DNA of 35,999 nucleotides from an uncultured Eubacteriales bacterium (GTDB lineage Bacteria; Bacillota; Clostridia; Christensenellales; Aristaeellaceae): the NCBI GenBank assembly GCA_944349545.1, contig CALVNG010000017.1, positions 1 to 35,999 on the forward strand. The letters run 5' to 3'. The notes beneath the pieces were generated by a model, which saw only the letters and a list, made by a program, of their open reading frames with translations, searched no databases and had not been told where the DNA came from. The translations under genes were made by a program, and so were the position numbers. Shown here piece by piece: positions 16,793 to 33,710 of this stretch (its first letter is position 1; every line of letters begins with the position of its first letter).

Positions 16793-16838
16793 CCCGTTGC
16801 GGCAAAACCGGTTGCGGGCAGGGGAAGCGTGATTTTTT
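16793..16838 (+). terminator. Weak hairpin followed at a distance by a T-run
   Basis: CCCG (16793-16796) with CGGG (16815-16818) and CGG/CCG inside give an imperfect stem. T7 follows only at 16832-16838. It may end the molybdenum operon poorly; a canonical terminator is not visible here. Confidence 0.3.
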
Positions 16839-16913
16839 TATGTGAAAAACTATGAAAAGCACACACCTGTTATCCTGCCAAATTGTACAAATGATAGAAA
16901 ATTCATCACGCGC

Positions 16914-16942
16914 TTGCAAGGACTGCGGGCGGGTGCTATACT
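16914..16942 (+). promoter_or_regulatory. Strong promoter of the purine catabolic operon
   Basis: TTGCAA (16914-16919), a 17-nt spacer and TATACT (16937-16942) with TGC directly before it (extended -10). The AT-rich stretch upstream contains the 8-bp palindrome TTGTACAA at 16883-16890, a possible regulator site. Transcription would start near 16949, leaving a leader of about 340 nt before ssnA. Confidence 0.8.
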
Positions 16943-16995
16943 ACAGTTGCAAGTAAGGATATGGAAACGATTGACCGCACGATTGTCTGATTTTT

Positions 16996-17088
16996 AACAG
17001 CCAGCTGTAACGGAGTGCTTCGCGCACGGGTTGGACCGACGGGACGGAAGTCCTTGCGGACTTCCAAGTTACATGGAGGCTGTTTTTT
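16996..17088 (+). ncRNA. Structured leader RNA unit 1, branched terminator-like fold
   Basis: AACAGCC (16996-17002) pairs with GGCTGTT (17078-17084), followed by T-run 17083-17088, as in an intrinsic terminator. Inside, TGTAAC (17006-17011) pairs with GTTACA (17068-17073). Within that lie two hairpins: GTGC/GCAC (17015-17018 with 17024-17027) and GGAAGTCC/GGACTTCC (17046-17053 with 17058-17065). The multibranch shape and terminal U-tract fit an attenuator or riboswitch-like leader. I cannot name a known family. Parts could instead belong to a dispersed repeat, since CTGTAACGGAGTGCTTCGCG recurs in unit 2. Confidence 0.55.
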
Positions 17089-17127
17089 CGTACGACATTT
17101 GATGCCCCAACAGGGAATGTTGGTAGC

Positions 17128-17210
17128 AGGCGGCTGTAACGGAGTGCTTCGCGCAAGGGCTGCAAGATCCCAAACCGGTGGTCTTGTTCCCGACTTCGCT
17201 ACAGCCGCTT
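17128..17210 (+). ncRNA. Structured leader RNA unit 2, related to unit 1
   Basis: AGGCGGCTGTA (17128-17138) pairs with TACAGCCGCTT (17200-17210), 11 bp with one G-U. The segment CTGTAACGGAGTGCTTCGCG, then CA, repeats 17005-17026 of unit 1 exactly. Inside, TGC/GCA forms the small hairpin seen in unit 1, then GGG (17157-17159) with CCC (17189-17191) and CAAGA (17163-17167) with TCTTG (17182-17186) form a longer arm. There is no T-run after it. GGCTGT of one unit can also pair with ACAGCC of the other, so alternative folds are possible. Confidence 0.5.
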
Positions 17211-17288
17211 ACGCGTCTGGCACGGCAGCGGGAGCATTCCGACATAAGCATACCCATCACAAACGACGGAGCGAAAAGGAGAATGCAC

Positions 17289-18626
17289 ATGTATCTGCTG
17301 GGAAACGGACGCCTTGTCACCCGCGACGCACACAACCCCTTCCTGGAAAACGGCTGCGTGGCCATTGAGGGCAACCTGATCGCCGAGGTGGGCCAGACGC
17401 AGGCACTGCGCGCCAAATACCCCGACGCGCCCTTCATGGACGCCAGGGGCGGCGTGATCATGCCGGGCTTCATCAATGCGCACAACCATATCTACTCCGC
17501 CTTTGCGCGCGGCCTGACCATCCGCGGCAACAATCCCTCCAACTTCCTGGAGGTGCTGGATCAGCAGTGGTGGACCATCGACCGCCATCTTCTGCTGAAG
17601 GATTCAAAAGCCAGCGCCGACGCGACCTACCTGGACTGCATCGAAAACGGCGTGACGACCGTCTTTGACCACCACGCCAGCTACGGCGAAATCGAAGGAA
17701 GCCTGTTCGCGCTGGCCGAAAGCGCGAAGCGCTTCGGCGTGCGCACCAATCTGTGCTACGAGATCAGCGACCGCGACGGCGCGGAGAAGATGCGCGCCGC
17801 CGTGAAGGAAAACGTCGATTTCATCCGCTATGCGCAGCGGGACGATACCGATATGCTCAAGGGCATGATGGGCATGCACGCGCCCTTCACCCTCTCCAAC
17901 GAGACGCTGGAATACTGCGCCGCCGAGAAGCCCGAGGGGGCCGGATACCACATCCACGTGGCCGAGGGCATCGACGACCTCTACGACAGCCTGACCAAGT
18001 ACAACAAGCGCCTGATGTTCCGCCTGCACGACATGGGCATTCTGGGCGAAAAGACCATCTGCGGCCACTGCATCTACATCAACGAGGCCGAGATGGACCT
18101 GCTCAGGAGCACGGACACGATGGTCGTGCACAACCCCGAAAGCAACATGGGCAACGCCGTGGGCTGCCCGCCGGTGCTCAAGATGTTTGAAAAGGGCATT
18201 CTCATCGGCCTGGGCACCGACGGCTACACCAACGACATGCTGGAGAGCTACAAGGTCGCCAACATCCTGCACAAGCACAACGCCTGCAAGCCCAACGTGG
18301 CCTGGGGCGAGATCCCCGCCATGCTCTTTGACCACAACCGCCACATGGCCGCGCGCTTCTTTGAAAAGCCCGTGGGCGTGCTTGCTCCCGGCGCGTATGC
18401 CGACGTGATCGTGCTGGACTATGTGCCGCTGACCCCCATGACGGCGCAGAACGTGAACAGCCACCTCCTCTTCGGCTGCAACGGCCACAACGTCGTCACC
18501 ACCATCATCAACGGTGTGGTCAGGATGAAGGACCGCGAACTTGTGGATATCGACAAGGAGGCCGTGCTCGCGCATTGCCGCGAGGAAGCCGCCGACCTGT
18601 GGCAGCGCATCAACGCGGGCCGCTGA
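17289..18626 (+). CDS. ssnA: SsnA-family amidohydrolase (purine catabolic operon)
   Basis: A 445-residue amidohydrolase. Metal ligands are visible in FINAHNHIYSAF (H65, H67), GYHIHVAEG, ICGHCIYIN and IGLGTDGYTND. The family is related to guanine deaminase and chlorohydrolases. SsnA belongs to the anaerobic purine/urate degradation gene set together with ygfK, xdhD, ygeX and ygeY found downstream here, where it is thought to hydrolyse a ring or amino group of an intermediate. ATG 17289 lies 7 nt after AAGGAG; ATG 17283 in the same frame is too close to that site. It is the first gene of the operon and follows the long structured leader. Confidence 0.92.
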   Translation: MYLLGNGRLVTRDAHNPFLENGCVAIEGNLIAEVGQTQALRAKYPDAPFMDARGGVIMPGFINAHNHIYSAFARGLTIRGNNPSNFLEVLDQQWWTIDRHLLLKDSKASADATYLDCIENGVTTVFDHHASYGEIEGSLFALAESAKRFGVRTNLCYEISDRDGAEKMRAAVKENVDFIRYAQRDDTDMLKGMMGMHAPFTLSNETLEYCAAEKPEGAGYHIHVAEGIDDLYDSLTKYNKRLMFRLHDMGILGEKTICGHCIYINEAEMDLLRSTDTMVVHNPESNMGNAVGCPPVLKMFEKGILIGLGTDGYTNDMLESYKVANILHKHNACKPNVAWGEIPAMLFDHNRHMAARFFEKPVGVLAPGAYADVIVLDYVPLTPMTAQNVNSHLLFGCNGHNVVTTIINGVVRMKDRELVDIDKEAVLAHCREEAADLWQRINAGR

Positions 18627-18716: not shown

Positions 18717-21692
18717 ATGAGCGACATCATGCGTCCCATTCCCTTTGCCGACCTGATGAACTGGGTGCTGGAGGAATACCGCACGCAGGGCACCATCTTC
18801 GGCGTGGGCGATCTCTACCGCCACGAGAGCGGCAAGACGCTCCCCATCTTCACCGAGCGGGTGGAAACGCCCTTCGGCCCGGCCGCCGGTCCGCATACGC
18901 AGCTCGCGCAGAACCTGATCGCGGCCTATGTGGGCGGCAGCCGCTTCTTTGAGGTCAAGACCGTGCAGATCATCGACGGCGAGGACCTGCCCGTCTCCAA
19001 GCCCTGCATCCGGGCCGAGGACGAGTGTTACAACGTGGAATGGAGCACGGAGCTGCGCGTGCCGCAGGCGTACGAGGAATACGTCAAGGCGTGGTTCGCC
19101 ATTAAGCTGCTTTCCAAGTCCATGGGCTTTGGCTCGCCCGACGGCTTTGTGTTCAACATGAGCGTGGGTTACGACCTCGCGGGCATCCAGAGCGAAAAGG
19201 TGGACCGCTACATCGAGGGCATGAAGGACGCCTCCGGGAGCGCCGTCTGGGCCGAGTGCCGCGCGTGGGCCCGGGAGAACCTCAGCCGCCTGCCCGGCAT
19301 CGACGAAGCATACATCGACGGCATCAATCCGCACATCTGCACCTCGATCACCCTGTCCACGCTGCACGGCTGCCCGCCGGACGAGATCGAGCGGATCGCC
19401 ACCTACCTCATCACCGTCAAGAAGCTCAACACCTACATCAAATGCAATCCCACGCTGCTGGGCTACGAGTTCGCGCGCAGCACGCTGGATGGCATGGGCT
19501 ACGACTACATCGTCTTTGACGACCATCACTTCAAGGCCGACCTGCAGTTCTCCGACGCGATCCCGATGTTCCGCCGCCTGATGGCGCTGTGCGAGGAAAA
19601 CGGCGTGGAGTTCGGCGTGAAGCTGACCAACACCTTCCCAGTCACCATCGCGGCGGGCGAGCTGCCGGGCGAGGAGATGTACATGAGCGGCAAGAGCCTC
19701 TATCCGCTGTCCATCTCGCTGGCCGAGCGGGTGGAGAAGGCGTTTGACGGAAAGCTCCGCGTATCCTATTCCGGCGGCGCGGACCAGTACAACATCGCCG
19801 ACATCTTCGCCTGCGGCGTGTGGCCCATCACCATGGCGACCACGCTCCTCAAGCCCGGCGGATACAACCGCCTCCGGCCCATCGCCGACATCCTCGGCGC
19901 CATGCCGTACCGGCCCTTTGAGGGCGTGGACGTGGAGGCATTGAGCGCCCTGGCCGCCAGGGCCCGCACGGACGTGCATCACCTCAAGCCCGTCAAGCCC
20001 CTGCCCAGCCGCAAGATGAAAAAGGACGTGCCCCTCATCGACTGCTTCACCGCACCCTGCGCCGAGCAGTGCCCCATCCATCAGGACATCCCCGAATACC
20101 TCAGGCTGGTGGGCGATGGCCGCTATGCGGACGCGCTGGAGGTGATCTGCGCCAAAAACCCGCTGCCCTTCATCACCGGCACCATCTGCAGCCACACCTG
20201 CATGTCCAAGTGCACGCGCAACTTCTATGAGGAATCGGTGCACATCCGCGCCGCGAAGCTCGCGGCGGCCGAGGGCGGCTTTGACGCCTTTGTGCGCACC
20301 CTCAGGCCCGGCGCGCCCTGCGGCGCCAGGGTGGCCGTGATCGGCGGCGGCCCCGCGGGCATGGCGGCGGCGTATTTCCTTTCGCGCGGCGGGGCGAAGG
20401 TCACGCTCTTTGAAAAGCGGGACGCGCTGGGCGGCATCGTCCGGCACGTCATCCCGGCCTTCCGCATCAGCGATGAGGCCATCGACAAGGACGCCTCCAT
20501 GCTGGAGAAGCTGGGCGTGGAGGTCCGGCTGAACACGGAGGTCGCGGATGCCCGCGCGCTGCTTGAGAAGGGCTACACCCACGTCGTCATCGCCAACGGC
20601 GCGTGGGAGCACGGCGCGCTCCATCTGGAGGGCGGCGAGGCCCTCAACGTGATCGAATTCCTGGAGAAGCAGAAAAACGCGCCCGAAACCCTTTCCCTGG
20701 GCAAAAACGTCGTCGTCATCGGCGGCGGCAACACCGCCATGGACGCGGCCCGCGCCGCCCGGCGCGCGCAGGGCGTGGAGCATGTGCGCCTGGTCTACCG
20801 CCGCAATCGCCGCTATATGCCCGCCGACGCCGAGGAGCTGGAGCTGGCCATGGCTGACGGTGTCGAATTCTGCGAGCTGATGGCTCCCAAGGCGTTGCAT
20901 GACGGCATGCTGACCTGCGAGGTGATGGAGCTGGGCGCGCCCGACGCCTCCGGCCGCCGCAGCCCGCAGCCCACGGGCCGCACGCGGGACGTTCCCGCCG
21001 ATACCGTCATCGCCGCCATCGGCGAGAAGGCGGACGCGGACTATTTCCGCAACAACGGCGTCGCCCTGGATGAACGCGGCCGCGCCGTGACGGACGGGGC
21101 GTGCAAGTCCAACGGCATCTACGTGCTGGGCGACGCGCGCCGCGGCCCCGCCACCGTGGTGGAGGCCATCGCGGACGCTGCCGCCGCCGCGCGCGACATC
21201 CTGAGCGCGCCGGAGGCCGGGCGCACCGCGCTCAGGCTCGCGCCCGCGGCCCTCAAGGTCCGCCGCTCCGCGCTCAGGGGCGCCGGAAGCCCCGGGGAGG
21301 AGGCCGCCCGCTGCCTCGGCTGCGAAACCGTCTGCGAGAACTGCGTGGACGTATGCCCCAACCGCGCCAACATCGCCGTCAGGGTGCCGGGGCTTGAGAA
21401 GGAGCAGGTCATCCACGTGGACAAGATGTGCAACGAGTGCGGCAACTGCGCCGTGTTCTGCCCCTACATCAGCGCCCCCTACAAGGACAAGTTCACCCTC
21501 TTTGGCTCGGCCGGAGACATGGCCGATTCCACCAACGCGGGCTTCTGCGTGCTGGACGCCGGCGCGCAGCGCGTGAAGGTGCGCCTGGGCGGCGAGGAAT
21601 ACGAAACGGAGCTTGCCTCCGACACCCGCACCGACGCCTCCATCCGGGCGCTGATGCAGGCGGTCATCCGCGATTACGCCTACTGCCTCTGA
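18717..21692 (+). CDS. ygfK: YgfK-type multidomain flavin/iron-sulfur oxidoreductase (putative selenate reductase subunit)
   Basis: A 991-residue protein. Residues about 1-430 form a dihydroorotate-dehydrogenase-like barrel (ending in YSGGADQYNIADIFACGVWP). Residues about 440-510 carry Cys clusters as in GltD (CFTAPCAEQCPIHQD, CSHTCMSKC). FAD binding follows at about 539 (VAVIGGGPAGMAAAYFLSRG) and NAD(P)H binding at about 664 (VVVIGGGNTAMDAARAARRA). Two C-terminal 4Fe-4S motifs lie at about 865 and 905 (CENCVDVCP, CNECGNCAVFCP). The name 'selenate reductase' is historical; in urate-degrading clusters it is a redox partner that likely reduces a purine intermediate or accepts xanthine dehydrogenase electrons. 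AGGAGGGG precedes ATG 18717. Confidence 0.93.
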   Translation: MSDIMRPIPFADLMNWVLEEYRTQGTIFGVGDLYRHESGKTLPIFTERVETPFGPAAGPHTQLAQNLIAAYVGGSRFFEVKTVQIIDGEDLPVSKPCIRAEDECYNVEWSTELRVPQAYEEYVKAWFAIKLLSKSMGFGSPDGFVFNMSVGYDLAGIQSEKVDRYIEGMKDASGSAVWAECRAWARENLSRLPGIDEAYIDGINPHICTSITLSTLHGCPPDEIERIATYLITVKKLNTYIKCNPTLLGYEFARSTLDGMGYDYIVFDDHHFKADLQFSDAIPMFRRLMALCEENGVEFGVKLTNTFPVTIAAGELPGEEMYMSGKSLYPLSISLAERVEKAFDGKLRVSYSGGADQYNIADIFACGVWPITMATTLLKPGGYNRLRPIADILGAMPYRPFEGVDVEALSALAARARTDVHHLKPVKPLPSRKMKKDVPLIDCFTAPCAEQCPIHQDIPEYLRLVGDGRYADALEVICAKNPLPFITGTICSHTCMSKCTRNFYEESVHIRAAKLAAAEGGFDAFVRTLRPGAPCGARVAVIGGGPAGMAAAYFLSRGGAKVTLFEKRDALGGIVRHVIPAFRISDEAIDKDASMLEKLGVEVRLNTEVADARALLEKGYTHVVIANGAWEHGALHLEGGEALNVIEFLEKQKNAPETLSLGKNVVVIGGGNTAMDAARAARRAQGVEHVRLVYRRNRRYMPADAEELELAMADGVEFCELMAPKALHDGMLTCEVMELGAPDASGRRSPQPTGRTRDVPADTVIAAIGEKADADYFRNNGVALDERGRAVTDGACKSNGIYVLGDARRGPATVVEAIADAAAAARDILSAPEAGRTALRLAPAALKVRRSALRGAGSPGEEAARCLGCETVCENCVDVCPNRANIAVRVPGLEKEQVIHVDKMCNECGNCAVFCPYISAPYKDKFTLFGSAGDMADSTNAGFCVLDAGAQRVKVRLGGEEYETELASDTRTDASIRALMQAVIRDYAYCL

Positions 21693-21710
21693 TTGCGGGA
21701 GGTGAGCGCC

Positions 21711-23069
21711 ATGACCATCATCCAACACGGAACGCTCGTCCTGCCGGACGGCCTTATGCAGGGCGACATCGCGTTTGAAAACGGCGTAATCACCCGCATC
21801 GCGCCCGCCATCGAGGCGGGCGCGGGCGACGCGGTGTGCGAGGCGGCGGGTTGCCTGGTCTTTCCCGGCTTCATCGACGCCCATACGCACCTGGACATGG
21901 ACAGCGGCACGACCGTCACCGCCGACGACTTCGCCAGCGGCTCCCGCGCCGCGGCGTGCGGCGGCACGACCACGCTGGTGGACTTCGCCACGCAGGAGCG
22001 GGGCGGCACGCTCAGGGACGCGCTGGACGCCTGGCACCGCAAGGCCGAGGGAAAATGCGCGTGCAACTACGCCTTTCACATGGCCGTGACCGACTGGAAC
22101 GAGCAGACGCGCGCCGAGCTCCCGCAGATGTTCGAGCGGGGCGTCACGTCCTTCAAGGCCTACTACGCCTATGACAACCTGCGCCTGGACGACGCGCAGA
22201 TGTACGACCTGCTTTCGGCCCTCCGTCCCTTCGGCGGGGTCCTGGGCGTGCACTGCGAGAACGGCACGCTGGTCAACCGGCTCCAGCGGGAGCAGCTTGA
22301 AAAGGGCGTCATCGGCCCGGCGGGGCATCCCGCCTCGCGCCCGCCTGTGGTGGAGGCGGAGGCCATCCGCCGCCTGTGCGCCGTGGCGAAGCTGGCGGAC
22401 AGCCCGGTCCACATCGTCCATCTCTCCAGCGCCGAGGGGCTGGAGGAGGTGCGCCGCGCCCGCGCGGCCGGGCAGAAGGTCTGGGCCGAAACCTGCCCGC
22501 AGTACCTCCTGCTGGACGAATCGCGCTACCACTTGGAGGGCTTCGAAGGGGCCAAATACGTCATGAGTCCGCCGCTTCGCTCTCCCGCCGACCGGGAGGC
22601 GCTGCGCGCGGCGGTCCTGGACGGGGAGATCGATACCATCTCCACCGACCATTGCAGCTACCGCTTCAGCGACCAGAAGACGCTGGGCAGGGACGACTTC
22701 ACCAAAATTCCCAACGGTGCGCCCGGCATCGAGCACCGCCCGGCGCTCATCTACACCAGCTTTGTGGCGTCTGGCCTGATGACCGCGGCGCAGATGAGCC
22801 GCCTTCTGAGCGAAAACCCCGCGAAGCTGTTTGGGATGTGGCCCCGCAAGGGGCAGCTTGCCCAGGGCGCGGACGCGGACATGACCGTGTGGGACCCGCG
22901 GGCGCGCTGGGTCATTCGCGCCGAGGCGCAGCATCAGAACGTGGATTATACGCCCTACGAAGGCTTTGAGGCGGCGGGACGCGCCCGGGCCGTCTATGTG
23001 GGCGGGCAACTGGCGGCAAAGGACGGTGAACCCTCGGGCGCGAGCGCCGGACGGTATGTAAAGCGATAA
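21711..23069 (+). CDS. hydA: Dihydropyrimidinase/D-hydantoinase-like cyclic amidohydrolase
   Basis: A 452-residue binuclear metal amidohydrolase. Metal ligands are H58 and H60 in FIDAHTHLDMD, the carboxylated Lys in FKAYYAYD (K149), HCEN, the His in VHIVHLSS and STDHC. C-terminal KLFGMWPRKGQLAQGADADM is the typical closing block. It opens cyclic ureides (dihydropyrimidines, hydantoins), here probably a ring left after reduction of a purine. GGGAGGTGA sits 5 nt before ATG 21711, which is preferred to a non-ATG start at 21693. The gap to the next gene is 10 nt. Confidence 0.93.
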   Translation: MTIIQHGTLVLPDGLMQGDIAFENGVITRIAPAIEAGAGDAVCEAAGCLVFPGFIDAHTHLDMDSGTTVTADDFASGSRAAACGGTTTLVDFATQERGGTLRDALDAWHRKAEGKCACNYAFHMAVTDWNEQTRAELPQMFERGVTSFKAYYAYDNLRLDDAQMYDLLSALRPFGGVLGVHCENGTLVNRLQREQLEKGVIGPAGHPASRPPVVEAEAIRRLCAVAKLADSPVHIVHLSSAEGLEEVRRARAAGQKVWAETCPQYLLLDESRYHLEGFEGAKYVMSPPLRSPADREALRAAVLDGEIDTISTDHCSYRFSDQKTLGRDDFTKIPNGAPGIEHRPALIYTSFVASGLMTAAQMSRLLSENPAKLFGMWPRKGQLAQGADADMTVWDPRARWVIRAEAQHQNVDYTPYEGFEAAGRARAVYVGGQLAAKDGEPSGASAGRYVKR

Positions 23070-23079
23070 GGAGGCTGGC

Positions 23080-25650
23080 ATGTACACTTTGTATGTGAAC
23101 GGTGCGGTATGCCGCACTGAAAAGAACAGCAAGCTGCTGGATTACCTGCGGGACGACCTGCGGCTGACCAGCGTGAAAAACGGCTGCGGCGAGGGCGCGT
23201 GCGGCACGTGCACCGTCCTGGTGGACGGCAAGAAGGCCAAGGCCTGCGTATTCCGGGTTGCCAAGCTGGATGGAAAGCACATCACAACCGTGGAGGGACT
23301 CACCGAGCGCGAGCGCGAGGTGTACGTCTACGCCTTCGGGCAGACGGGCGCGGTGCAGTGCGGCTTTTGCATCCCCGGCATGGTGCTGTGCGCCAAGGCG
23401 CTGATCGCCGAGAACCCCGACCCCACGCCCGAGGATGTCAAAAAGGCCATCCGGGGCAACATCTGCCGCTGCACGGGCTATGTGCGCATCGAGCAGGCCA
23501 TTTTGCTGGCGGCCAGGATGCTGCGCGAAAACCTGCCCGTGCCGGACAGCGACGCGGACGCGCGCATCGGCCACCTGTTTCCGCGGGTGGACGTGGCGGA
23601 AAAGGTGCTGGGAACCGGGCTTTTCGTGGACGACATCACCCTTCCCGGCATGATCTACGCCAAGGCCCTGCGCTCCAAATACCCGCGCGCGCGGGTGGAG
23701 AAGATCGACCTGACCCGCGCGCTGGCGCATCCCGACGTGGTCAGGATCCTTACCGCCAAGGATGTGCCCTTTAACAAGACCGGGCATATCATTCAGGACT
23801 GGGACGTGCTGATCGCCGAGGGCGACTGCACGCGCTACGTGGGCGACGCGATCGTGCTGGTAGCCACCAACCACAAGGAGACGCTGGACGAGGTGCTCAG
23901 CCTGGTGGACGTGACCTACACCGAGCTCACGCCCCTCACCGACCCGCGCGAGGCCATGAAGGAGGACGCGCCCAAGCTGCACGAAAACGGGAACATCCTC
24001 ACCAAGCAGGTGCTGCGCCGGGGCGACGTGGACAAGGCGATCGCCGAGGCGGCGTACGTGGTCACCCGGCACTATTCCACCCCGATGACCGACCATGCCT
24101 TCATGGAGCCGGAATGCGCCATCGGCATCCCGGACGGCGACGGCGGGCTTCTGATGTACACCGCCAGCCAGTCGGTCTACGACGAACAGAAGGAAATCAG
24201 CCGCATGCTCAAGCTGCCGCCGGAAAAGGTGCGCTGCCAGACCAAGCTGGTGGGCGGCGGCTTCGGCGGCAAGGAGGACATGAGCGTGCAGCATCACGCG
24301 GCGCTGATGGCCTGGGCCACGGGCCGGCCCGTGAAGGTGAAGTTCTCCCGGCAGGAGAGCCTCAACATCCACACCAAGCGCCACGCCATGGAGATGGACG
24401 TGACCACCGCCTGCGACAAGGACGGCAAACTCCTGGCCATGAAGGCGCTGCTCATCTCCGACTGCGGGGCCTACGCCTCCCTGGGCGGGCCGGTTTTGCA
24501 GCGCGCCTGCACGCATGCCGGCGGTCCCTACAACTTCCAGAACGTGGACATCACCGGCATCTGCGTCTATACCAACAACGTGCCCGGCGGCGCCTTCCGC
24601 GGCTTCGGCGTCACGCAGAGCTGCTTCGCGGGCGAGGTCAACCTGGACCTGCTGGCCGAGAAGGTGGGCATCTCCCCGTGGGAGATCCGCTACCGCAACG
24701 CCATCCGCCCCGGACAGGTGCTGCCCAACGGGCAGATCGCCTCGCCGGACACGGGCTATGTCGAATGTCTGGAGGCCGTGAGGGAAGCGTTTGAAAGCAG
24801 CCCCTACGCGGGCATCGCCGGGGCCATGAAAAACAGCGGCGTAGGCGTGGGCCTGCCGGACATCGGCCGCTGCCGCCTGGCCGTGGAAGGCGGCATGGTG
24901 CGCATCCGCACCAGCGCGGCGTGCATGGGCCAGGGCGTGGCTACGGTGTGCACGCAGCTCGTGCATGAGGTGACGGGCGTCGCGCCCGCGAGCATCTTCC
25001 ATGAGCGCGCCGACACCGCCGTCACCCCCAACTCCGGCACCTCCACCGCCAGCCGCCAGACCGTGTTCTGCGGCGAGGCCACGCGCCGCGCGGCCCAGCA
25101 GCTTTCGCAGGCGCTCAAGGCGGCGGGCGGCGACCTGACCAGGCTGGAGGGCCAGTCGTTCTACGGCGAGTACTCCGGCGTGACCGACCCCATGGGCTCC
25201 GACAAGCCCAACCCCGTCAGCCATGTGGCCTACGGCTATGCGGCGCAGGTGGTCGTCATGGACGAAAACAAAAAGGTCGTCCGCGTGGTGGCCGCCCATG
25301 ACGTGGGCCGCGTCGTCAATCCCCAGGCCTGCGCCGGACAGATCGAGGGCGGCGTGGTCATGGGCCTGGGCTACGGCCTGACCGAGGACTTCAAGATGGA
25401 AAACGGCTACGTCAAGAGCAAGTACGGCACGCTGGGCCTGCTGCGCTCCACGGATGTGCCGCCCATCGAGGTGCGCTTCATCGAAAAGGGCACGGACGAT
25501 CAGAACACCTTCGGCGCCAAGGGCGTGGGCGAGATCAGCGCCATTCCCGCCGCCCCGGCATGCGCCAACGCGGCCTACCGCGTGGACGGCCAGGAGCGCA
25601 CCAGCCTGCCCATCACAAACACGTTCTATCGGAAGGAGGGGGCCAAATGA
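23080..25650 (+). CDS. xdhD: Selenium-dependent-type xanthine dehydrogenase, [2Fe-2S] and Mo domains fused, no FAD domain
   Basis: An 856-residue molybdenum hydroxylase. Residues about 1-155 carry two [2Fe-2S] clusters: C36, C41, C44, C56, then C94, C97, C129, C131 (CGFCIPGM, CRCTGY). The rest is the molybdopterin part, with VGGGFGGKEDMS, GAFRGFGVTQS and the catalytic Glu block GAKGVGEIS. This matches XdhD and the selenium-dependent xanthine dehydrogenases of purine-fermenting Clostridia, which carry a labile Se ligand rather than selenocysteine. The FAD/NAD domain of classical XDH is absent and no separate FAD-subunit gene is present here, so another flavoprotein must take the electrons. It oxidises hypoxanthine or xanthine, or runs in reverse on urate. 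The stop overlaps the permease start. Confidence 0.94.
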   Translation: MYTLYVNGAVCRTEKNSKLLDYLRDDLRLTSVKNGCGEGACGTCTVLVDGKKAKACVFRVAKLDGKHITTVEGLTEREREVYVYAFGQTGAVQCGFCIPGMVLCAKALIAENPDPTPEDVKKAIRGNICRCTGYVRIEQAILLAARMLRENLPVPDSDADARIGHLFPRVDVAEKVLGTGLFVDDITLPGMIYAKALRSKYPRARVEKIDLTRALAHPDVVRILTAKDVPFNKTGHIIQDWDVLIAEGDCTRYVGDAIVLVATNHKETLDEVLSLVDVTYTELTPLTDPREAMKEDAPKLHENGNILTKQVLRRGDVDKAIAEAAYVVTRHYSTPMTDHAFMEPECAIGIPDGDGGLLMYTASQSVYDEQKEISRMLKLPPEKVRCQTKLVGGGFGGKEDMSVQHHAALMAWATGRPVKVKFSRQESLNIHTKRHAMEMDVTTACDKDGKLLAMKALLISDCGAYASLGGPVLQRACTHAGGPYNFQNVDITGICVYTNNVPGGAFRGFGVTQSCFAGEVNLDLLAEKVGISPWEIRYRNAIRPGQVLPNGQIASPDTGYVECLEAVREAFESSPYAGIAGAMKNSGVGVGLPDIGRCRLAVEGGMVRIRTSAACMGQGVATVCTQLVHEVTGVAPASIFHERADTAVTPNSGTSTASRQTVFCGEATRRAAQQLSQALKAAGGDLTRLEGQSFYGEYSGVTDPMGSDKPNPVSHVAYGYAAQVVVMDENKKVVRVVAAHDVGRVVNPQACAGQIEGGVVMGLGYGLTEDFKMENGYVKSKYGTLGLLRSTDVPPIEVRFIEKGTDDQNTFGAKGVGEISAIPAAPACANAAYRVDGQERTSLPITNTFYRKEGAK

Positions 25651-26972
25651 GCGCGCGCACGACGGCGACGGCGGACGCCCTGTATACCCGCCGCGGCAGG
25701 CCGGCCATCGGAAAGGCCATTCCGCTCGCCCTGCAGCATGTGGTGGCCATGGTGGTCGGCTGCATCACCATGCCCATGATCGTGGCCTCCTCGGCCGGCG
25801 TTTCGCCCCAGGACCAGATCATCATGGTACAGGCCAGCCTGCTGGTGGCGGCGCTGGCGATTCTGTTGCAGGCGTTCGGGGTGAAGGGCTTCCTCTCCAG
25901 CTGCCTGCCGGTGATGGTGGGAAGCGGCTTCGCTTTTTTGCCCACGCTGCGCTCCATCGTGGAGCAGTACGGCATGTCGGGTCTTGCGGGCGCGCAGATC
26001 GCGGGCGCCGTGATGGGCATGGTCGTGGGCCTGGTCTTTAAGAAAATCCGCTTTCTCTTCCCGCCCATCGTGACCGGCAGCGTGGTGTTGACCATCGGCA
26101 TCTCGCTCTATGACACGGCGGTCAACTACATGGCCGGCGGTTCGGCGGTGGCGCCCACCTATGGCAGCGCCGGCAACTGGATTCTGGCGCTGGTCACGCT
26201 GGTCACGGTCATCGTGGCGGGCCAGTTCGGCAAAGGCATGATGAAAGCCAGCGCCACGCTCATCGGCATGCTGGTGGGCTATCTCGCGGCCGCCCTCACC
26301 GGGGGCATCGACTTTTCGGGCATCGCCTCGGCCGGCTGGGTACAGCTCCCCGAGCCCTTCCACTTCGCGCCCGCCTTCCACTTCAACGCCATCATCAGCC
26401 TGGGCATCGTCTTTATGGTCAACGCCGTGCAGGACATCGGACAGCTGGAGGCCACGGCCAACGGCGTCTATGAGCGCGAGGCCGACGGCGCGGAGATCAC
26501 CGGCGGCGTGATCGGCAACAACCTGTGCAGCCTGCTGGGCGGCATCCTGGGCGGTGTGCCCGTGGCCACCGCCGGGCAGAACGTGGGCATCGTCGTCACC
26601 ACCAAGGTCATCAACCGCGTGGTCTTTGGCATCGCGGGGGTGGTGGTGCTGGTGGCGGGCCTCGTGCCCAAGCTCAGCGCCATCCTCGTCACCATTCCCC
26701 AGCCGGTGCTGGGCGGCGCGACGATCACGGTGTTCGGCTCCATCGCCATGACCGGCGTGCGCATGCTCGCGCGCGAGGGCCTCAGCCCGCGCAGCACCTT
26801 TATCGCGGGCTTGAGCGTGGCGCTGGCGGTGGGCATCCCTCAGCTTCCGGGCGTCTTTGCGGGCTGCCCCGCGTGGATCGGACAGATCTTCGGCGGCTCG
26901 GAGGTCATCATCGTGGCGCTCACGGCCATTTTGCTCAACCTCATCCTTCCCAGGGAAAAAAAGGAGATTTGA
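25647..26972 (+). CDS. NCS2 (uracil-xanthine) family purine permease
   Basis: A 441-residue membrane protein with about 14 hydrophobic segments and the NAT signature QNVGIVVTTK near residue 311. It begins LALQHVVAMVVGCITMPMIV, the usual N-terminal QH motif of NCS2 carriers. It would import xanthine, urate or a related purine for the flanking enzymes. One oddity: where characterised members have E-[ST]-x-G-D in TM8, this one reads Q262-D-I-G-Q266, losing both acidic residues. ATG 25647 overlaps the XDH stop by 4 nt. Confidence 0.93.
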   Translation: MSARTTATADALYTRRGRPAIGKAIPLALQHVVAMVVGCITMPMIVASSAGVSPQDQIIMVQASLLVAALAILLQAFGVKGFLSSCLPVMVGSGFAFLPTLRSIVEQYGMSGLAGAQIAGAVMGMVVGLVFKKIRFLFPPIVTGSVVLTIGISLYDTAVNYMAGGSAVAPTYGSAGNWILALVTLVTVIVAGQFGKGMMKASATLIGMLVGYLAAALTGGIDFSGIASAGWVQLPEPFHFAPAFHFNAIISLGIVFMVNAVQDIGQLEATANGVYEREADGAEITGGVIGNNLCSLLGGILGGVPVATAGQNVGIVVTTKVINRVVFGIAGVVVLVAGLVPKLSAILVTIPQPVLGGATITVFGSIAMTGVRMLAREGLSPRSTFIAGLSVALAVGIPQLPGVFAGCPAWIGQIFGGSEVIIVALTAILLNLILPREKKEI

Positions 26973-26975
26973 CGT

Positions 26976-28196
26976 ATGAAGGAATCCTTTAAGATCGTCA
27001 CCTATCCGCGCCAGGCAAAGCCGGATACCGACCTGTCCGCCTTCACTATCGAGCAGGCCCGCAAGGCGCGGGACTTCCACGCCAGCTTCGACGTGTATGC
27101 CCAAACGCCCCTCACCGCCCTGCCGGGGCTGGCAAAGGCGCTGGGCGTCGCCTCCATCCATGTGAAGGACGAGAGCTACCGCTTTGGCCTCAACGCCTTC
27201 AAGGTGCTCGGCGGCAGCTATGCGCTGGGGCGCTACATCGCCAAGCGTCTGGGCGAGGACATCGCGGACCTGCCCGCCTCGCGCATCCTCTCCGACGAGG
27301 TGCGCAAGAGGCTGGGCGAGGTGACCTTTGTCACCGCCACGGACGGCAACCACGGCCGCGGCGTCGCCTGGACGGCCAACCGGCTCGGCCAGCATTCCGT
27401 GGTGTACATGCCCAAGGGCTCCGCCGCCGAGCGGCTGGCCAACATCCGCGCCGAGGGCGCGGACGCCTCCATCACCGACCTCAACTACGACGACGCGGTC
27501 CGCCTGGCCAACCGCCAGGCCGTCGAAAAGGGCTGGGTCATGGTGCAGGACACCGCCTGGGAGGGGTATACCGACATCCCCCTGTGGATCATGCAGGGCT
27601 ATACGACCATGGGCTATGAGATCGTGCAGCAGCTTGAGGCCATGGGGGCGGAAAAGCCCACGCATGTGTTCCTGCAGGCGGGCGTGGGCAGCATGGCGGG
27701 CGCGATGACGGGCTTTCTGACCTCGTATTACGGTGCGGAGCGGCCCTTCATCACCGTGGTGGAACCCAACAAGGCCGACTGCGTGTTCCGCACCGCGGAG
27801 GCCAACGACGGCAAGCTGCACTTCGTAACCGGCGAGATGAACACCATCATGGCCGGCCTTGCCTGCGGCGAGCCGTGCACCATCGGCTGGGAGGTGCTCA
27901 AGAACTGCGCCGACGCCTTCATCAGCTGCCCGGACTACGCCGCGGCGGACGGCATGCGCATCCTCGCCGCCCCCGTGCGCGGCGACCAGCCCATCGTGTC
28001 GGGCGAATCGGGCGCGGCGACCACGGGCTGCGTGGCCAACATCCTGCTGCGCGAAGGGCTGCATGAGCTTAAGGAAAAGCTGCATCTGGACGCCTCCAGC
28101 CGCGTGCTGTTCATCAGCACCGAGGGCGACACCGACCGCGACAACTACCGCAAGGTGGTCTGGGGCGGCAAATATTCCAAGGTATACGAAGCGTAA
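26976..28196 (+). CDS. ygeX: Diaminopropionate ammonia-lyase
   Basis: A 406-residue PLP enzyme of the tryptophan-synthase-beta/threonine-deaminase fold. The PLP lysine is K76 in RFGLNAFKVLGGSYALG. TATDGNHGRGVAW is the phosphate/substrate loop. DTAWEGYTDIPLWIMQGYTTM and GESGAATTGC are characteristic of 2,3-diaminopropionate ammonia-lyase. It splits diaminopropionate to pyruvate and two ammonia through 2-aminoacrylate, the last carbon-yielding step in the proposed anaerobic urate pathway. It starts 3 nt after the permease stop. Confidence 0.94.
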   Translation: MKESFKIVTYPRQAKPDTDLSAFTIEQARKARDFHASFDVYAQTPLTALPGLAKALGVASIHVKDESYRFGLNAFKVLGGSYALGRYIAKRLGEDIADLPASRILSDEVRKRLGEVTFVTATDGNHGRGVAWTANRLGQHSVVYMPKGSAAERLANIRAEGADASITDLNYDDAVRLANRQAVEKGWVMVQDTAWEGYTDIPLWIMQGYTTMGYEIVQQLEAMGAEKPTHVFLQAGVGSMAGAMTGFLTSYYGAERPFITVVEPNKADCVFRTAEANDGKLHFVTGEMNTIMAGLACGEPCTIGWEVLKNCADAFISCPDYAAADGMRILAAPVRGDQPIVSGESGAATTGCVANILLREGLHELKEKLHLDASSRVLFISTEGDTDRDNYRKVVWGGKYSKVYEA

Positions 28197-28217: not shown

Positions 28218-29402
28218 ATGTTGAACGAAACGCAGAAAAACGAAGTGGTGGCCCTGTGCCAGAAGCTGATCCAGTCGCCCAGCACCAGCGGACACGAGGA
28301 GGGCGTGGTTGAGCGCCTGAAGGCGTTCTTTGAGGCAAACGGCTTTGACAGCGTGCACGTGGACCGCTACGGCAACGTCATCGGCTGCATCAAGGGCTCC
28401 CGCCCCGGCCCCAGGATTCTCTTTGACGGGCACATCGATACCGTCCCCGTGGGCGACCCCGCCACCTGGGAGCATGACCCGTTTGCCGCCGAGATCGTGG
28501 ACGGCAAAATCTACGGCCGCGGCACCTCGGACATGAAGGGCGCGGTAGCCGCCATGGCGTGCGCCGCCGCCAACTACGCCAAGGCCACGAACAAGGATTT
28601 CGCGGGCGAGATCTACGTGGCGGGCGTGGTGCACGAGGAGTGCTTCGAGGGTGTGGCGGCGCGCGAGATCAGCGCCTATGTCAAGCCCGACTACGTCGTC
28701 ATCGGCGAGGCCAGCCAGCTCAACCTCAAGATCGGCCAGCGCGGCCGCGCCGAGATCGTCGTGGAGACCTTCGGCAAGCCCTGCCACAGCGCCAACCCCG
28801 AAAAGGGCATCAACGCGGTCTACAAGATGGCCAAGGTCATCGAGGCCATCCGCACGCTGGAGCCCACCCATCATCCGGTGCTGGGCGACGGCATCCTGGA
28901 ATTGACCGACATCAAGTCCGCGCCCTATCCGGGCGCTTCCGTGGTGCCGGAGTACTGCCGCGCGACCTATGACCGCCGCCTGCTGGTGGGCGAAACAAAG
29001 GAAAGCGTGCTTGCGCCCATCAACGCCCTGCTGGAGAAGCTCATGGCCGAGGACCCGCAGCTCAAGGTCAAGGCCAGCTACGCCGTGGGCCGGGAGATGT
29101 GCCACACCGGCAACGAGATCGAGGGCGAACGCTTCTTCCCCGGCTGGCTGTATGACGAGAACGACGATTTTGTGCAGGCCGTCTATGGCGAGCTCAAGGC
29201 CATGGGCTACAATCCCACCATCACCCAGTACAACTTCTGCACCAACGGCAGCCACTACGCGGGCGAGGCGGGCGTCAAGACCTTCGGCCTCGGACCCAGC
29301 CGCGAGAACCTGGCGCACACCATCAACGAGTACATCGAGATCGACCAGCTCGTGAAGGTCTGCGACTGCTACACCGGCGTGATGAAGGCGCTGCTGAAAT
29401 AA
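28218..29402 (+). CDS. ygeY: YgeY-family M20 metallohydrolase
   Basis: A 394-residue M20/ArgE-DapE-type enzyme. Metal and catalytic blocks are LFDGHIDTVPVGD, GRGTSDMKGAVAAM, VVHEECFEGVA (general base Glu pair), IGEASQL and the late His in ENLAHTINEYIEI. The closest named group is the YgeY 'selenium metabolism hydrolase' family, always found beside ygeX and ssnA. It probably hydrolyses an N-acyl or N-carbamoyl bond to release diaminopropionate or a related amino acid for YgeX (inference). GAAAGGAG precedes ATG 28218. Confidence 0.93.
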   Translation: MLNETQKNEVVALCQKLIQSPSTSGHEEGVVERLKAFFEANGFDSVHVDRYGNVIGCIKGSRPGPRILFDGHIDTVPVGDPATWEHDPFAAEIVDGKIYGRGTSDMKGAVAAMACAAANYAKATNKDFAGEIYVAGVVHEECFEGVAAREISAYVKPDYVVIGEASQLNLKIGQRGRAEIVVETFGKPCHSANPEKGINAVYKMAKVIEAIRTLEPTHHPVLGDGILELTDIKSAPYPGASVVPEYCRATYDRRLLVGETKESVLAPINALLEKLMAEDPQLKVKASYAVGREMCHTGNEIEGERFFPGWLYDENDDFVQAVYGELKAMGYNPTITQYNFCTNGSHYAGEAGVKTFGLGPSRENLAHTINEYIEIDQLVKVCDCYTGVMKALLK

Positions 29403-31010: not shown

Positions 31011-31039
31011 AACCATCAAATTTTAAGGAGGAATTGCTC

Positions 31040-31417
31040 ATGAATACCGCCGTTTCCACCGAAAAGGCCCCCGCCGCCATCGGCCCCTATTCGCAGGCCG
31101 TGCAGGCCGGAAATACCGTCTATGTCTCCGGCCAGCTGCCCATCGACCCCGCCACCGGCGCGTTTGCCGGCGAGGACATCCGTGCGCAGACGCGCCAGTC
31201 GCTGACCAACATCTGCGCCATCCTTGAGGCCGTGGGCGCGGACATGTCCAAGGTCGTCAAGACCACGGTGCTTCTCAAAAACATCGCGGATTTTGCCGCG
31301 ATGAACGAGGTTTACGCGGAGTTCTTCGCCGCGCCCTATCCCGCCCGCGCCGCGTTCCAGGTGGCCGCGCTGCCCAAGGACGCGCTGGTGGAGATCGAGT
31401 GCGTGGCGGTGATCTGA
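31040..31417 (+). CDS. ridA: RidA family enamine/imine deaminase
   Basis: A 125-residue YjgF/YER057c/UK114 protein. Key features are [22 protein letters not shown], the catalytic Arg (R103) in [16 protein letters not shown] and VEIECVAVI at the end. RidA hydrolyses 2-aminoacrylate to pyruvate and ammonia; YgeX, encoded 3 kb upstream, makes exactly this intermediate, so the gene suits the operon. ATG 31040 lies 8 nt after AAGGAGG; a TTG at 31034 in the same frame is too close to the site. Confidence 0.95.
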
Positions 31418-31419
31418 CC

Positions 31420-31456
31420 GGGCATCGCGCGGCCTGCGCGGCCGCGCGCCCTTTTT
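31420..31456 (+). terminator. Terminator-like hairpin inside the operon, between ridA and nfnA
   Basis: GGGC (31420-31423) with GCCC (31448-31451) and GCGCGGCC (31427-31434) with GGCCGCGC (31440-31447), with an ATC bulge, are followed by TTTTT at 31452-31456. It is probably leaky, lowering expression of the NfnA/NfnB genes, because no separate promoter is evident in the 18 nt left before the next start. Confidence 0.7.
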
Positions 31457-31474
31457 AGAAAGCGGAGGAACAAG

Positions 31475-32317
31475 ATGTACAGAATTGTGGAAAAAGAGGC
31501 GCTCAATCCCACGGTGACCCGCATGGTCATCGAGGCGCCGCTGGTGGCCCGCAAGGCCCAGCCTGGGCAGTTCATCATCTTCCGCGCGTCGGAGGACGGC
31601 GAGCGCGTGCCGCTGACGATCGCGGATTACGACCGGGAAAAGGGCACCGTGACGATCATCTTTCAGATCGTGGGCGGGGCGACCATGGAGCTTAACGCAC
31701 TTGAGGCGGGCGACAGCCTGACCGACTTCGTGGGCCCGCTGGGCAAGCCCAGCGATCTGGAGGGGCTGAAGAAGGTGGCGGTCGTGGGCGGCGGCGTGGG
31801 CTGCGCCATCGCCTATCCCACGGCCAAGCGCCTGCATGAGCTGGGCGCGGAGGTCCATGCGGTGGTAGGCTTCCGCAGCCGCGACCTGGTGATTTTGGAA
31901 AAGGAGTTCTCCGCCGTTTCGGACCGGATGCTCATGATGACCGACGACGGCAGCTACGGCGAAAAGGGCCTGGTCACCAACGCGCTGGAAAGGCTTATCC
32001 AGGAGGGCAACCGCTACGACGAGGTCATCGCCATCGGCCCGCTGGTCATGATGAAGTTCGTGTGCAAGGTGACGGAGAAATACGGCGTCAAAACGACCGT
32101 GTCCATGAATCCCATCATGATCGACGGCACCGGCATGTGCGGCGGCTGCCGCCTCACCGTGGGCGGGCAGACAAAGTTTGCCTGCGTGGACGGCCCGGAC
32201 TTCGACGGGCATCAGGTGGACTTTGACGAGGCGATACAGCGCGGGGGAATGTACCGCGACTTTGAGGCGCACGCGCGCGAGGCCGCCTGCAACCTGTTCA
32301 AGAAGGAGGCGGAGTGA
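31475..32317 (+). CDS. NfnA/SudB-like FAD-NAD binding [2Fe-2S] subunit
   Basis: A 280-residue protein of the sulfide/dihydroorotate-dehydrogenase electron-transfer (PyrK, NfnA) family. It has a ferredoxin-reductase FAD domain (KAQPGQFIIFRASEDGERVP, then LTIADYD), an NAD-binding loop KKVAVVGGGVGCAIAYP near residue 105, and C-terminal Cys ligands for a [2Fe-2S] cluster (GTGMCGGCRLTV, FACVDGPDFDGH). With the next gene it resembles NfnAB, the electron-bifurcating NADH-dependent ferredoxin:NADP+ oxidoreductase of Clostridia. In this operon the pair could connect purine oxidation to ferredoxin and NADPH. Confidence 0.9.
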   Translation: MYRIVEKEALNPTVTRMVIEAPLVARKAQPGQFIIFRASEDGERVPLTIADYDREKGTVTIIFQIVGGATMELNALEAGDSLTDFVGPLGKPSDLEGLKKVAVVGGGVGCAIAYPTAKRLHELGAEVHAVVGFRSRDLVILEKEFSAVSDRMLMMTDDGSYGEKGLVTNALERLIQEGNRYDEVIAIGPLVMMKFVCKVTEKYGVKTTVSMNPIMIDGTGMCGGCRLTVGGQTKFACVDGPDFDGHQVDFDEAIQRGGMYRDFEAHAREAACNLFKKEAE

Positions 32318-32318
32318 G

Positions 32319-33710
32319 ATGCCCAACATGGACCCCAAAAAGTGCCCCATGCCCGTGCAGGAGCCCGAGGCGCGCATCCGAAATTTCTCCGAGGTGGCGC
32401 TTGGGTATACCTATGACATGGCGGTGGGGGAGGCCAGGCGCTGCCTGAGCTGCAAAAACAAGCCCTGCGTATCGGGCTGCCCGGTGGGCATCGACATTCC
32501 CGCCTTTGTCGCGCGCGTCGCGGCGGAGGACATGGAGGGCGCCTGGGAGGTGCTGAGCGCCTCCACGGCGCTGCCGGCGGTGTGCGGCCGCGTCTGCCCG
32601 CAGGAAAACCAGTGCGAGGGCAAGTGCGTGCGCGGCATCAAGGGCGAGCCGGTGGGGATCGGCCGCCTGGAGCGCTTCGTGGCCGACTGGCACCGAGAGC
32701 ATACCGACGCGAAGCCCGAGGTCCCCGTGCAAAACGGCCACAAGGTCGCGGTCATCGGGTCGGGGCCTTCCAGCCTCACGGCGGCGGGCGAGCTGGCCAA
32801 GGCGGGCTACAAGGTGACGGTCTATGAGGCGCTGCACACGCCGGGCGGCGTGCTGGTCTACGGCATCCCGGAATTCCGCCTGCCCAAGGACATCGTGCGC
32901 CGGGAGATCGACGGCCTGCGCCAGATCGGCGTGGACATCGAAACCAACGTCGTCGTCGGCAAGACCGTGACCATCGACGAGCTGTTTGACATGGGCAACG
33001 AGGCGGTCTTTATCGGCTCCGGCGCGGGCCTGCCCCGCTTCATGGGGATTCCGGGCGAGAGCCTCAACGGCGTCTACTCCGCCAACGAGTTCCTCACCCG
33101 CATCAACCTCATGAAAGCCTACAAGGAAAATGCCAAGACCCCCGTCCAGCGCGCCAGAAACGTGGCGGTCGTGGGCGGCGGCAACGTGGCCATGGACGCG
33201 GCGCGCTGCGCCAAGCGCCTGGGCGCTCAGAACGTCTACATCGTCTACCGCCGCGGCATGGAGGAGATGCCCGCGCGCCGGGAAGAGGTCGAACACGCGC
33301 AGGAAGAGGGCATCATCTTCCGGACCCTGTGCAATCCCATCGAGGTGCTGGGCGACGACAAGGGCTGCGTGAAGGGCATGATCTGCCAGGAGATGGAGCT
33401 GGGCGAGCCGGACGCCTCCGGACGCCGCCGGCCGGTCCCCAAGGAGGGCAGCACCTTCACCCTGGAGGTGGACTGCATGGTCATGTCCATCGGCACCAGC
33501 CCCAACCCGCTCATCCGTTCGACCACGCCGGGCCTGGAAACCAACCGCCACGGCTGCATCATCACAAGCGGCGACGACGGGCTGACCACGCGCGAGGCCG
33601 TCTACGCGGGCGGCGACGCCGTGACCGGCGCGGCCACGGTCATCCTGGCCATGGGCGCGGGCAAGCAGGCGGCCAGGGCGATCGATCAGTACATCAGGAG
33701 CAAGGAATGA
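32319..33710 (+). CDS. gltA: NfnB/GltA-like NADPH-dependent oxidoreductase (glutamate synthase small-subunit type)
   Basis: A 463-residue flavoprotein. N-terminal Cys clusters read RRCLSCKNKPCVSGCPVGID and CGRVCPQENQCEGKC. FAD binding follows near residue 144 (VAVIGSGPSSLTAAGELAKA) and NADPH binding near 284 (VAVVGGGNVAMDAARCAKRL). VYRRGMEEMPARREEVEHA and the closing GGDAVTGAATVILAMGAGK are typical of the family. Databases usually name it homotetrameric glutamate synthase. With the NfnA-like neighbour, and no large GltB-type glutamate synthase gene, an NfnB role is more likely. ATG 32319 follows AAGGAGG by 9 nt and sits 1 nt after the previous stop. Confidence 0.91.
   Translation: MPNMDPKKCPMPVQEPEARIRNFSEVALGYTYDMAVGEARRCLSCKNKPCVSGCPVGIDIPAFVARVAAEDMEGAWEVLSASTALPAVCGRVCPQENQCEGKCVRGIKGEPVGIGRLERFVADWHREHTDAKPEVPVQNGHKVAVIGSGPSSLTAAGELAKAGYKVTVYEALHTPGGVLVYGIPEFRLPKDIVRREIDGLRQIGVDIETNVVVGKTVTIDELFDMGNEAVFIGSGAGLPRFMGIPGESLNGVYSANEFLTRINLMKAYKENAKTPVQRARNVAVVGGGNVAMDAARCAKRLGAQNVYIVYRRGMEEMPARREEVEHAQEEGIIFRTLCNPIEVLGDDKGCVKGMICQEMELGEPDASGRRRPVPKEGSTFTLEVDCMVMSIGTSPNPLIRSTTPGLETNRHGCIITSGDDGLTTREAVYAGGDAVTGAATVILAMGAGKQAARAIDQYIRSKE

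Follow-up and report, generated by a model that had tools for sequence, protein, structure and literature searches.

LicT/SacY-type (RAT) sites consist of a small conserved hairpin that overlaps a terminator. Among riboswitches, xanthine-I (NMT1 motif) is described in the available excerpts of its report as a hairpin with an internal bulge, which senses xanthine and uric acid and acts as an OFF switch, likely translational, on genes making oxidised purines (PMC7373994). Xanthine-II appears in the accessible part of another report as a variant of the guanine riboswitch (PMC9295807). Tandem riboswitches termed pseudo-cooperative include, according to the accessible portion of a third source, TPP, Moco, glutamine and others, and xanthine-I and -II are placed there among the classes not found in tandem (PMC9481103). 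As outlined in the available sections of a study on reductive urate degradation, XdhD forms yanthine, the compound that YgfK and SsnA reduce and open, and the final steps involve HyuA, YgeW or UacY, YgeY and YgeX; UacY, a PF07969 protein, replaces YgeW in C. difficile (PMC12507026).

Here we analyzed a DNA stretch of 35,999 nt (contig CALVNG010000017.1, from an uncultured Eubacteriales bacterium; hereafter the window), in which a 340-nt leader (16949-17288) with two related units in series precedes ssnA and further urate-degradation genes. Both units belong to the ssnA RNA family (Rfam RF03031). As far as the excerpts on xanthine-I go, this RNA resembles that class in being a hairpin with an internal bulge; in contrast, it is predicted to act as an ON switch, through a terminator, on genes that destroy oxidised purines. 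The xanthine-I (NMT1) model of Rfam gave no match in the leader, even up to E 10. Like the pseudo-cooperative tandems, to the extent that the accessible source describes them, the leader has two units of the same class, both of which have a terminator in most tandem relatives; in contrast to those riboswitches, it belongs to an orphan class, and the second unit of the window has no U-run. What is new here is a tandem member of a known orphan RNA family, together with a mechanism open to experimental test. The Rfam model ends before the terminators, and both the tandem arrangement and a C6/G6 split described below lie outside it; the comparison gives RF03031 an expression platform beyond that model, a testable mechanism, a tight link to reductive urate degradation and a short list of ligands.

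Two ssnA RNA units in front of the urate genes

The features of the locus are collected in Table 1. The initial annotation had found a segment of 22 bases, CTGTAACGGAGTGCTTCGCGCA, in both units (17005-17026 and 17134-17155), and these coordinates proved exact; the closing of unit 1 by AACAGCC/GGCTGTT with a T6 end, and that of unit 2 by an 11-bp stem with no T-run, were likewise located. That annotation could not name an RNA class, but the Rfam scan it suggested revealed that both units match RF03031 (ssnA RNA, Cis-reg) across all 48 positions of the model and above the gathering cut-off of 37.3 bits. The leader therefore carries two members of a named orphan RNA family. No other family reached its gathering score in the window, and the matches up to E 10 within 16800-17400, RF03031 apart, were to a microRNA, a snoRNA and a viral frameshift family. 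The ssnA RNA was reportedly discovered by Weinberg et al. in 2017, and our literature search on ssnA RNA / RF03031 found no paper on its function. We take its typical setting to be upstream of ssnA, the namesake of the family, which is the setting observed in the window and in its relatives.

Both units had stable predicted folds. Unit 1 reached -38.2 kcal/mol (z -3.0), which 1 shuffle in 200 also attained, and unit 2 -43.5 kcal/mol (z -4.5), attained by 0 of 200. Promoter-like matches numbered 2 versus 0.3 in shuffles, one of them being the promoter of Table 1. A simple terminator scan gave 1 match versus 0.9 in shuffles, which is chance level.

Table 1. Leader elements and downstream genes, with positions in the window
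Feature	Position	Strand	Basis or remark
Promoter, sigma-70-like, TTGCAA-17-TATACT, TG ahead of second hexamer	16914..16942	+	consensus match alone, 9/12
Unit 1, ssnA RNA (RF03031)	16995..17042	+	46.3 bits; P1 covariation
Unit 1 core	17005-17030		
Unit 1 P1	17001-17005 with 17030-17034		
Unit 1 P2, Rfam register	17015-17018 with 17024-17027		
Predicted intrinsic terminator of unit 1, ending in T6 (17083-17088)	16996..17088	+	fold; similar stems in relatives
Unit 2, ssnA RNA (RF03031)	17124..17171	+	45.9 bits
Unit 2 core	17134-17159		
Unit 2 P1	17130-17134 with 17159-17163		
Unit 2 outer stem, 11 bp, without U-run (17128-17138 with 17200-17210)	17128..17210	+	position corresponds to terminator stem of relatives
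ssnA, first gene after leader, aminohydrolase of reductive urate degradation	17289..18626	+	PRK07203, 674 bits; TIGR03314, 626 bits
ygfK	18717..21692	+	TIGR03315
hyuA-like dihydropyrimidinase	21693..23069	+	
Selenium-dependent xanthine dehydrogenase	23080..25650	+	TIGR03311
NCS2-family purine permease, pbuX-like	25560..26972	+	above cut-off for ncs2, below for pbuX
ygeX, diaminopropionate ammonia-lyase	26976..28196	+	
ygeY hydrolase	28218..29402	+	
Amidohydrolase, PF07969	29418..31010	+	Pfam family of C. difficile UacY

The genes found downstream cover the urate pathway, as far as the accessible sections of PMC12507026 describe it, and the set thus appears complete; the PF07969 amidohydrolase suggests a stand-in for YgeW. 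The start codon of the permease is uncertain, and its listed reading frame overlaps the preceding gene. Judging from gene spacing, the urate genes (about 14 kb) are probably read as one transcript. Upstream of the leader lie genes for an ABC transporter, a ModE-domain protein and a MocA-like protein. On the minus strand, a reading frame of 453 aa (31016-32377) is convergent to the urate genes; it had no match in NCBIfam (E 1e-10) or Pfam (E 1e-4), and a relative with 47% identity lies at the equivalent place in locus L144.

A scan for the core pattern in one genome per species (84,980 species) yielded 30 loci, titled Oscillospiraceae, Ruminococcaceae, related genera, Clostridia or, once, Bacillota; the genera presumably belong to the Oscillospiraceae/Ruminococcaceae group. 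RF03031 was also searched in genome samples that overlap one another; scores above the cut-off came from 1 of 391 genomes at class level, 14 of 396 at order level and, at family level, 4 of 308 in the family of the window and 27 of 103 in another, referred to here as the second family. The final data set contained 62 loci with 71 units, including the window, after L043 (the same locus as L040) and L042 and L057 (no core) had been dropped. Sub-cut-off matches without the core, judged by eye, were set aside (L004-L008, G467 with locus L042, and G850 with locus L057).

The gene next to the RNA was ssnA-like in 61 of the 62 loci, as judged from the protein start, and the sequence of the remaining one (L026) ends before its next gene. 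Tblastn searches detected SsnA, with the protein of the window as query, in all but L026 of the 50 loci given, and YgfK in 45 of the 50; all 20 of the longer stretches contained YgfK, and 18 of them a protein related to the dehydrogenase of the window. Among 411 genomes of the two families, 100 contained ssnA (E 1e-100) and 311 did not; the RNA was present in 32 genomes, all with ssnA (28 of 73 and 4 of 27 in the two families), and in 0 of the 311 without it, although such co-occurrence counts ignore kinship. The 32 carriers are 31 genomes above the cut-off plus G859 at 36.5 bits; G467 (27.2 bits, no ssnA) was left out. In the loci seen, the RNA is thus linked exclusively to ssnA. In the 68 ssnA genomes without the RNA, where the upstream DNA was readable, ssnA mostly lay behind another coding region or a short leader (by eye, with some starts mis-picked).

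P1 covariation and predicted overlap with the terminator

In an alignment of 61 distinct rows, pairing of the P1/P2 structure amounted to 91.8%, compared with a shuffle value of 87.4%. Two-sided changes were counted in 40 cells, as against 16.5 ± 3.4 for the shuffles (none of 500 as high), and in 5 pairs (reached by 2 of 500); kinship is ignored in these shuffle controls. Further pair types, one of the five covariation measures, were not above chance (92 of 500), and shifting the pairing partners abolished P1/P2 pairing. The P1 pairs -2/27 and -1/26 were standard in all 61 rows, and also in all 30 distinct rows from the pattern scan (versus 24.7 and 26.8 in shuffles), where neither pair had been required. 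Outer P1 was patchy, with pair -3/28 standard in 44 of 61 rows, which is not above shuffles, and -4/29 in 30. P2, by comparison, is nearly invariant (99.2% paired), with one compensatory change in a single sequence; in the Rfam register, a C-to-A difference at 17156 in unit 2 of the window disrupts the pair that closes P2, and a shifted register with a 3-nt loop fits about as well as that of Rfam, whose loop has 5 nt. Helix P1 therefore covaries, and the covariation support sits there. Conservation of the core is partly by construction, since the pattern behind the 30 loci fixes 19 core positions; P1 positions other than C0/G25 are absent from this pattern, and the search model of Rfam that supplied the remaining loci is biased towards the structure it encodes. 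At core position 6, 42 units have C and 29 have G; all C6 units have A21, and the G6 units have G21 (24) or A21 (5). The G6 form comprises the second family plus L041 (L041, L044-L056, L058-L072), and the split might reflect a change in specificity or in a tertiary contact.

The predicted terminator of unit 1 pairs AACAGCC (16996-17002) with GGCTGTT (17078-17084) and CTGTAAC (17005-17011) with GTTACATG (17068-17075), which breaks up both P1 and the core in its 5' half. Similar stems are present in L010, L011, L016, L025, L026, L029, L032 and L035. Of the 70 units with a T run, 51 had at least four core positions inside the best predicted terminator hairpin, 18 using the 5' strand of the core, as unit 1 of the window does, and 33 the 3' strand; the latter number includes unit 2 of L032, whose T stretch does not adjoin the outer stem, and unit 1 of L040, whose hairpin is weak (-14.9 kcal/mol), and the count missed L070, where an inner T stretch was taken (read by eye). 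Most units are thus predicted to form either the folded core or the terminator but not both, since the two draw on shared positions; this is the relation to an expression platform expected of a riboswitch. In the other 19 units, which had at most three core positions in the predicted terminator, this exclusion is not predicted; 11 of them have a separate hairpin followed by a terminator. A ACTATCACT-like stretch follows the core in L012, L014, L019, L021, L023, L024, L027, L028, L030, L031 and L033, and in these leaders the hairpin and the separate terminator have a few bases in common (by eye).

Pairs within terminator stems are standard by construction, being taken from a fold, and unpaired cells are given where counted. 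In the 28 units with core positions 20 and 22 both in the stem, position 21 and its partner varied together, forming G-C (20 units), A-U (6) or G-U (1), and position 21 was unpaired once (L022, with A). Ten units have C at core position 3; in two of these, L026 and L040 unit 2, the terminator uses that strand, and the C pairs with G. In a weak test of core-to-tail complementarity against shuffled tails, at most 3 of 300 shuffles did as well for 12 of 70 units, and at most 15 of 300 for 22 of 70.

Unit 1 of the window was folded as a transcript of increasing length that included 40 nt of upstream RNA, at equilibrium rather than kinetically. P1 probabilities were 0.44-0.85 while the 3' end lay between 17034 and 17074, dropped to 0.08 when it reached 17078 and stood at 0.00 from 17082 on, the point at which the terminator stem forms. 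P2 in the Rfam register reached 0.08-0.26 up to 17074 and had a low probability in most units. When the folded stretch was fixed, running from 20 nt ahead of the core start to 34 nt past it (L017 left out for too little upstream DNA), P1 was 0.5 or higher in 45 units of 70 and below 0.2 in 19. The values for the window were 0.33 (unit 1) and 0.53 (unit 2), and comparison of 0.33 with 0.44-0.85 indicates that the result for unit 1 depends on the length of upstream RNA folded. When the RNA was extended to the T run, P1 fell below 0.1 in 66 of 70 units.

These observations bear out the proposal, made in the initial annotation, of a structured, duplicated leader with the layout of an attenuator before the urate genes. 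Two findings had been named there as speaking against it, namely a lack of covariation among homologous leaders and copies of the shared segment scattered through the genome; P1 covaries in such leaders, and scattered copies were not found.

Tandem loci and the second unit

Tandem units were found in 9 of the 62 loci: the window, L010, L016, L025, L026, L029, L032, L035 and L040. Across these loci, flank identity was 0.79 between first units and 0.61 between second units, but 0.36 between first and second units, and the tandem copies look like the product of one old duplication. Because L010, L016, L025 and L029 are closely related, the independent weight of these loci is below nine. An exchange of closing stems between the two units had also been suggested; GGCTGT/ACAGCC complementarity was present in just six of the nine loci, and we rejected this exchange as a conserved device, the conserved exchange being the one within each unit.

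Both units are followed by a U-run in the seven tandem loci other than the window and L032 (the weak hairpin of L040 unit 1 among them), the run after unit 2 having at least five T in six loci and four (TTTT) in L026. In the window and in L032, no T run follows the stem of unit 2, and the arrangement of a pseudo-cooperative tandem, with a terminator for each unit, is therefore absent from both. L032, which has the nearest relative of the window's unit 2, is titled Ruthenibacterium, and its SsnA is 91% identical to that of the window. In both loci, unit 2 has A at core position 22, and the 11-bp outer stem of the window is kept in L032 with changed, compensating pairs. Unit 1 of the window joins a full core to a predicted terminator, and unit 2 may be read as a unit that lost its terminator.

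Antitermination model and alternative explanations

We propose that the leader carries two ssnA-class RNAs in series and that unit 1, when stabilized by a ligand, acts as an ON switch by antitermination, a reading to which we give a probability of roughly 0.55. Nascent unit 1 would fold into a small hairpin composed of P1, an internal loop (GUAACGRA opposite G) and P2. A ligand holding this fold would let RNA polymerase read on; without it, the 5' strand AACAGCC..CUGUAAC would be captured by GUUACAUG..GGCUGUU, a terminator would form at 17083-17088, and the urate gene run of about 14 kb would stay off. We infer the ON logic from the predicted terminator, which dismantles the conserved fold, so that readthrough would be expected in the bound state. 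Direct binding is assumed in this scheme, and urate, 2,8-dioxopurine ('yanthine') or xanthine, all oxidised purines of the pathway, are our best guesses for the ligand. Unit 2 would be another aptamer of this class. Where a tandem has two terminators, passing one checkpoint after the other would make the response sharper, and in the window and L032, where the U-run of unit 2 was lost, this unit may be a remnant or have another mode of action. A more specific version, which we advance tentatively, is that the ssnA RNA is a riboswitch binding urate or yanthine and turning on anaerobic reductive urate degradation by antitermination, with a two-unit double check in Gemmiger, Fournierella and Ruthenibacterium. 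If true, this would explain how some gut anaerobes sense urate and would bear on host urate levels; it would also represent a natural urate-responsive genetic switch, one by which gut anaerobes detect a purine that they use for growth.

The core might instead be the binding site of an RNA-binding antiterminator protein of the LicT/SacY kind, with the protein sensing the purine, which we consider unlikely but worth keeping in mind. The size and placement of the core fit sites of that type, as a small conserved hairpin overlapping a terminator, and the window's genome encodes one ANTAR and one HutP protein. However, among the 32 RNA-bearing genomes, several of them incomplete, the RNA-binding domain CAT_RBD of LicT/SacY-type proteins occurred in none, HutP in 4 and ANTAR in 6, and we rejected all three as a general partner. 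The HutP and ANTAR proteins of the window's genome (G000:C15:3021-3401 and G000:C27:3033-3194) are encoded on contigs other than that of the leader, and most RNA carriers are without them. The sensed compound could also lie outside the urate path, for example molybdenum cofactor, guanine or 8-oxoguanine; the ABC transporter, ModE-domain and MocA-like proteins encoded upstream are in keeping with this idea, as is a pathway dehydrogenase of the Mo and Se kind. Yet the RNA precedes ssnA in the loci read, and never a cofactor or transport gene, and RF03031 was the one Rfam family above its cut-off, so that we regard such a ligand as rather improbable. Attenuation through a translated leader peptide would account for the long leader and its alternative stems, but a short ATG frame with a ribosome-site-like sequence was seen in just 8 of 61 leaders and at differing positions, which makes it very improbable. 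As for the view, raised in the initial annotation, that the shared segment is a dispersed genomic repeat, the near-identity of the two copies is what one would expect from it; nevertheless, RF03031 has two copies in the genome, both in this leader (assembly of 2.57 Mb in 178 contigs, 93% complete), and the copies of relatives likewise precede ssnA, so that we give it almost no credence.

Within the antitermination model, a further question is whether unit 2 of the window is a decaying remnant, with unit 1 alone regulating; here we see the odds as even, and they overlap with those of the model itself. The stem without a U-run and the A at core position 22, both common to unit 2 of L032, point to decay. 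On the other hand, the 11-bp stem is retained in the window and L032 with compensating differences, it folds better than all 200 shuffles, and the unit still scores 45.9 bits against the family model.
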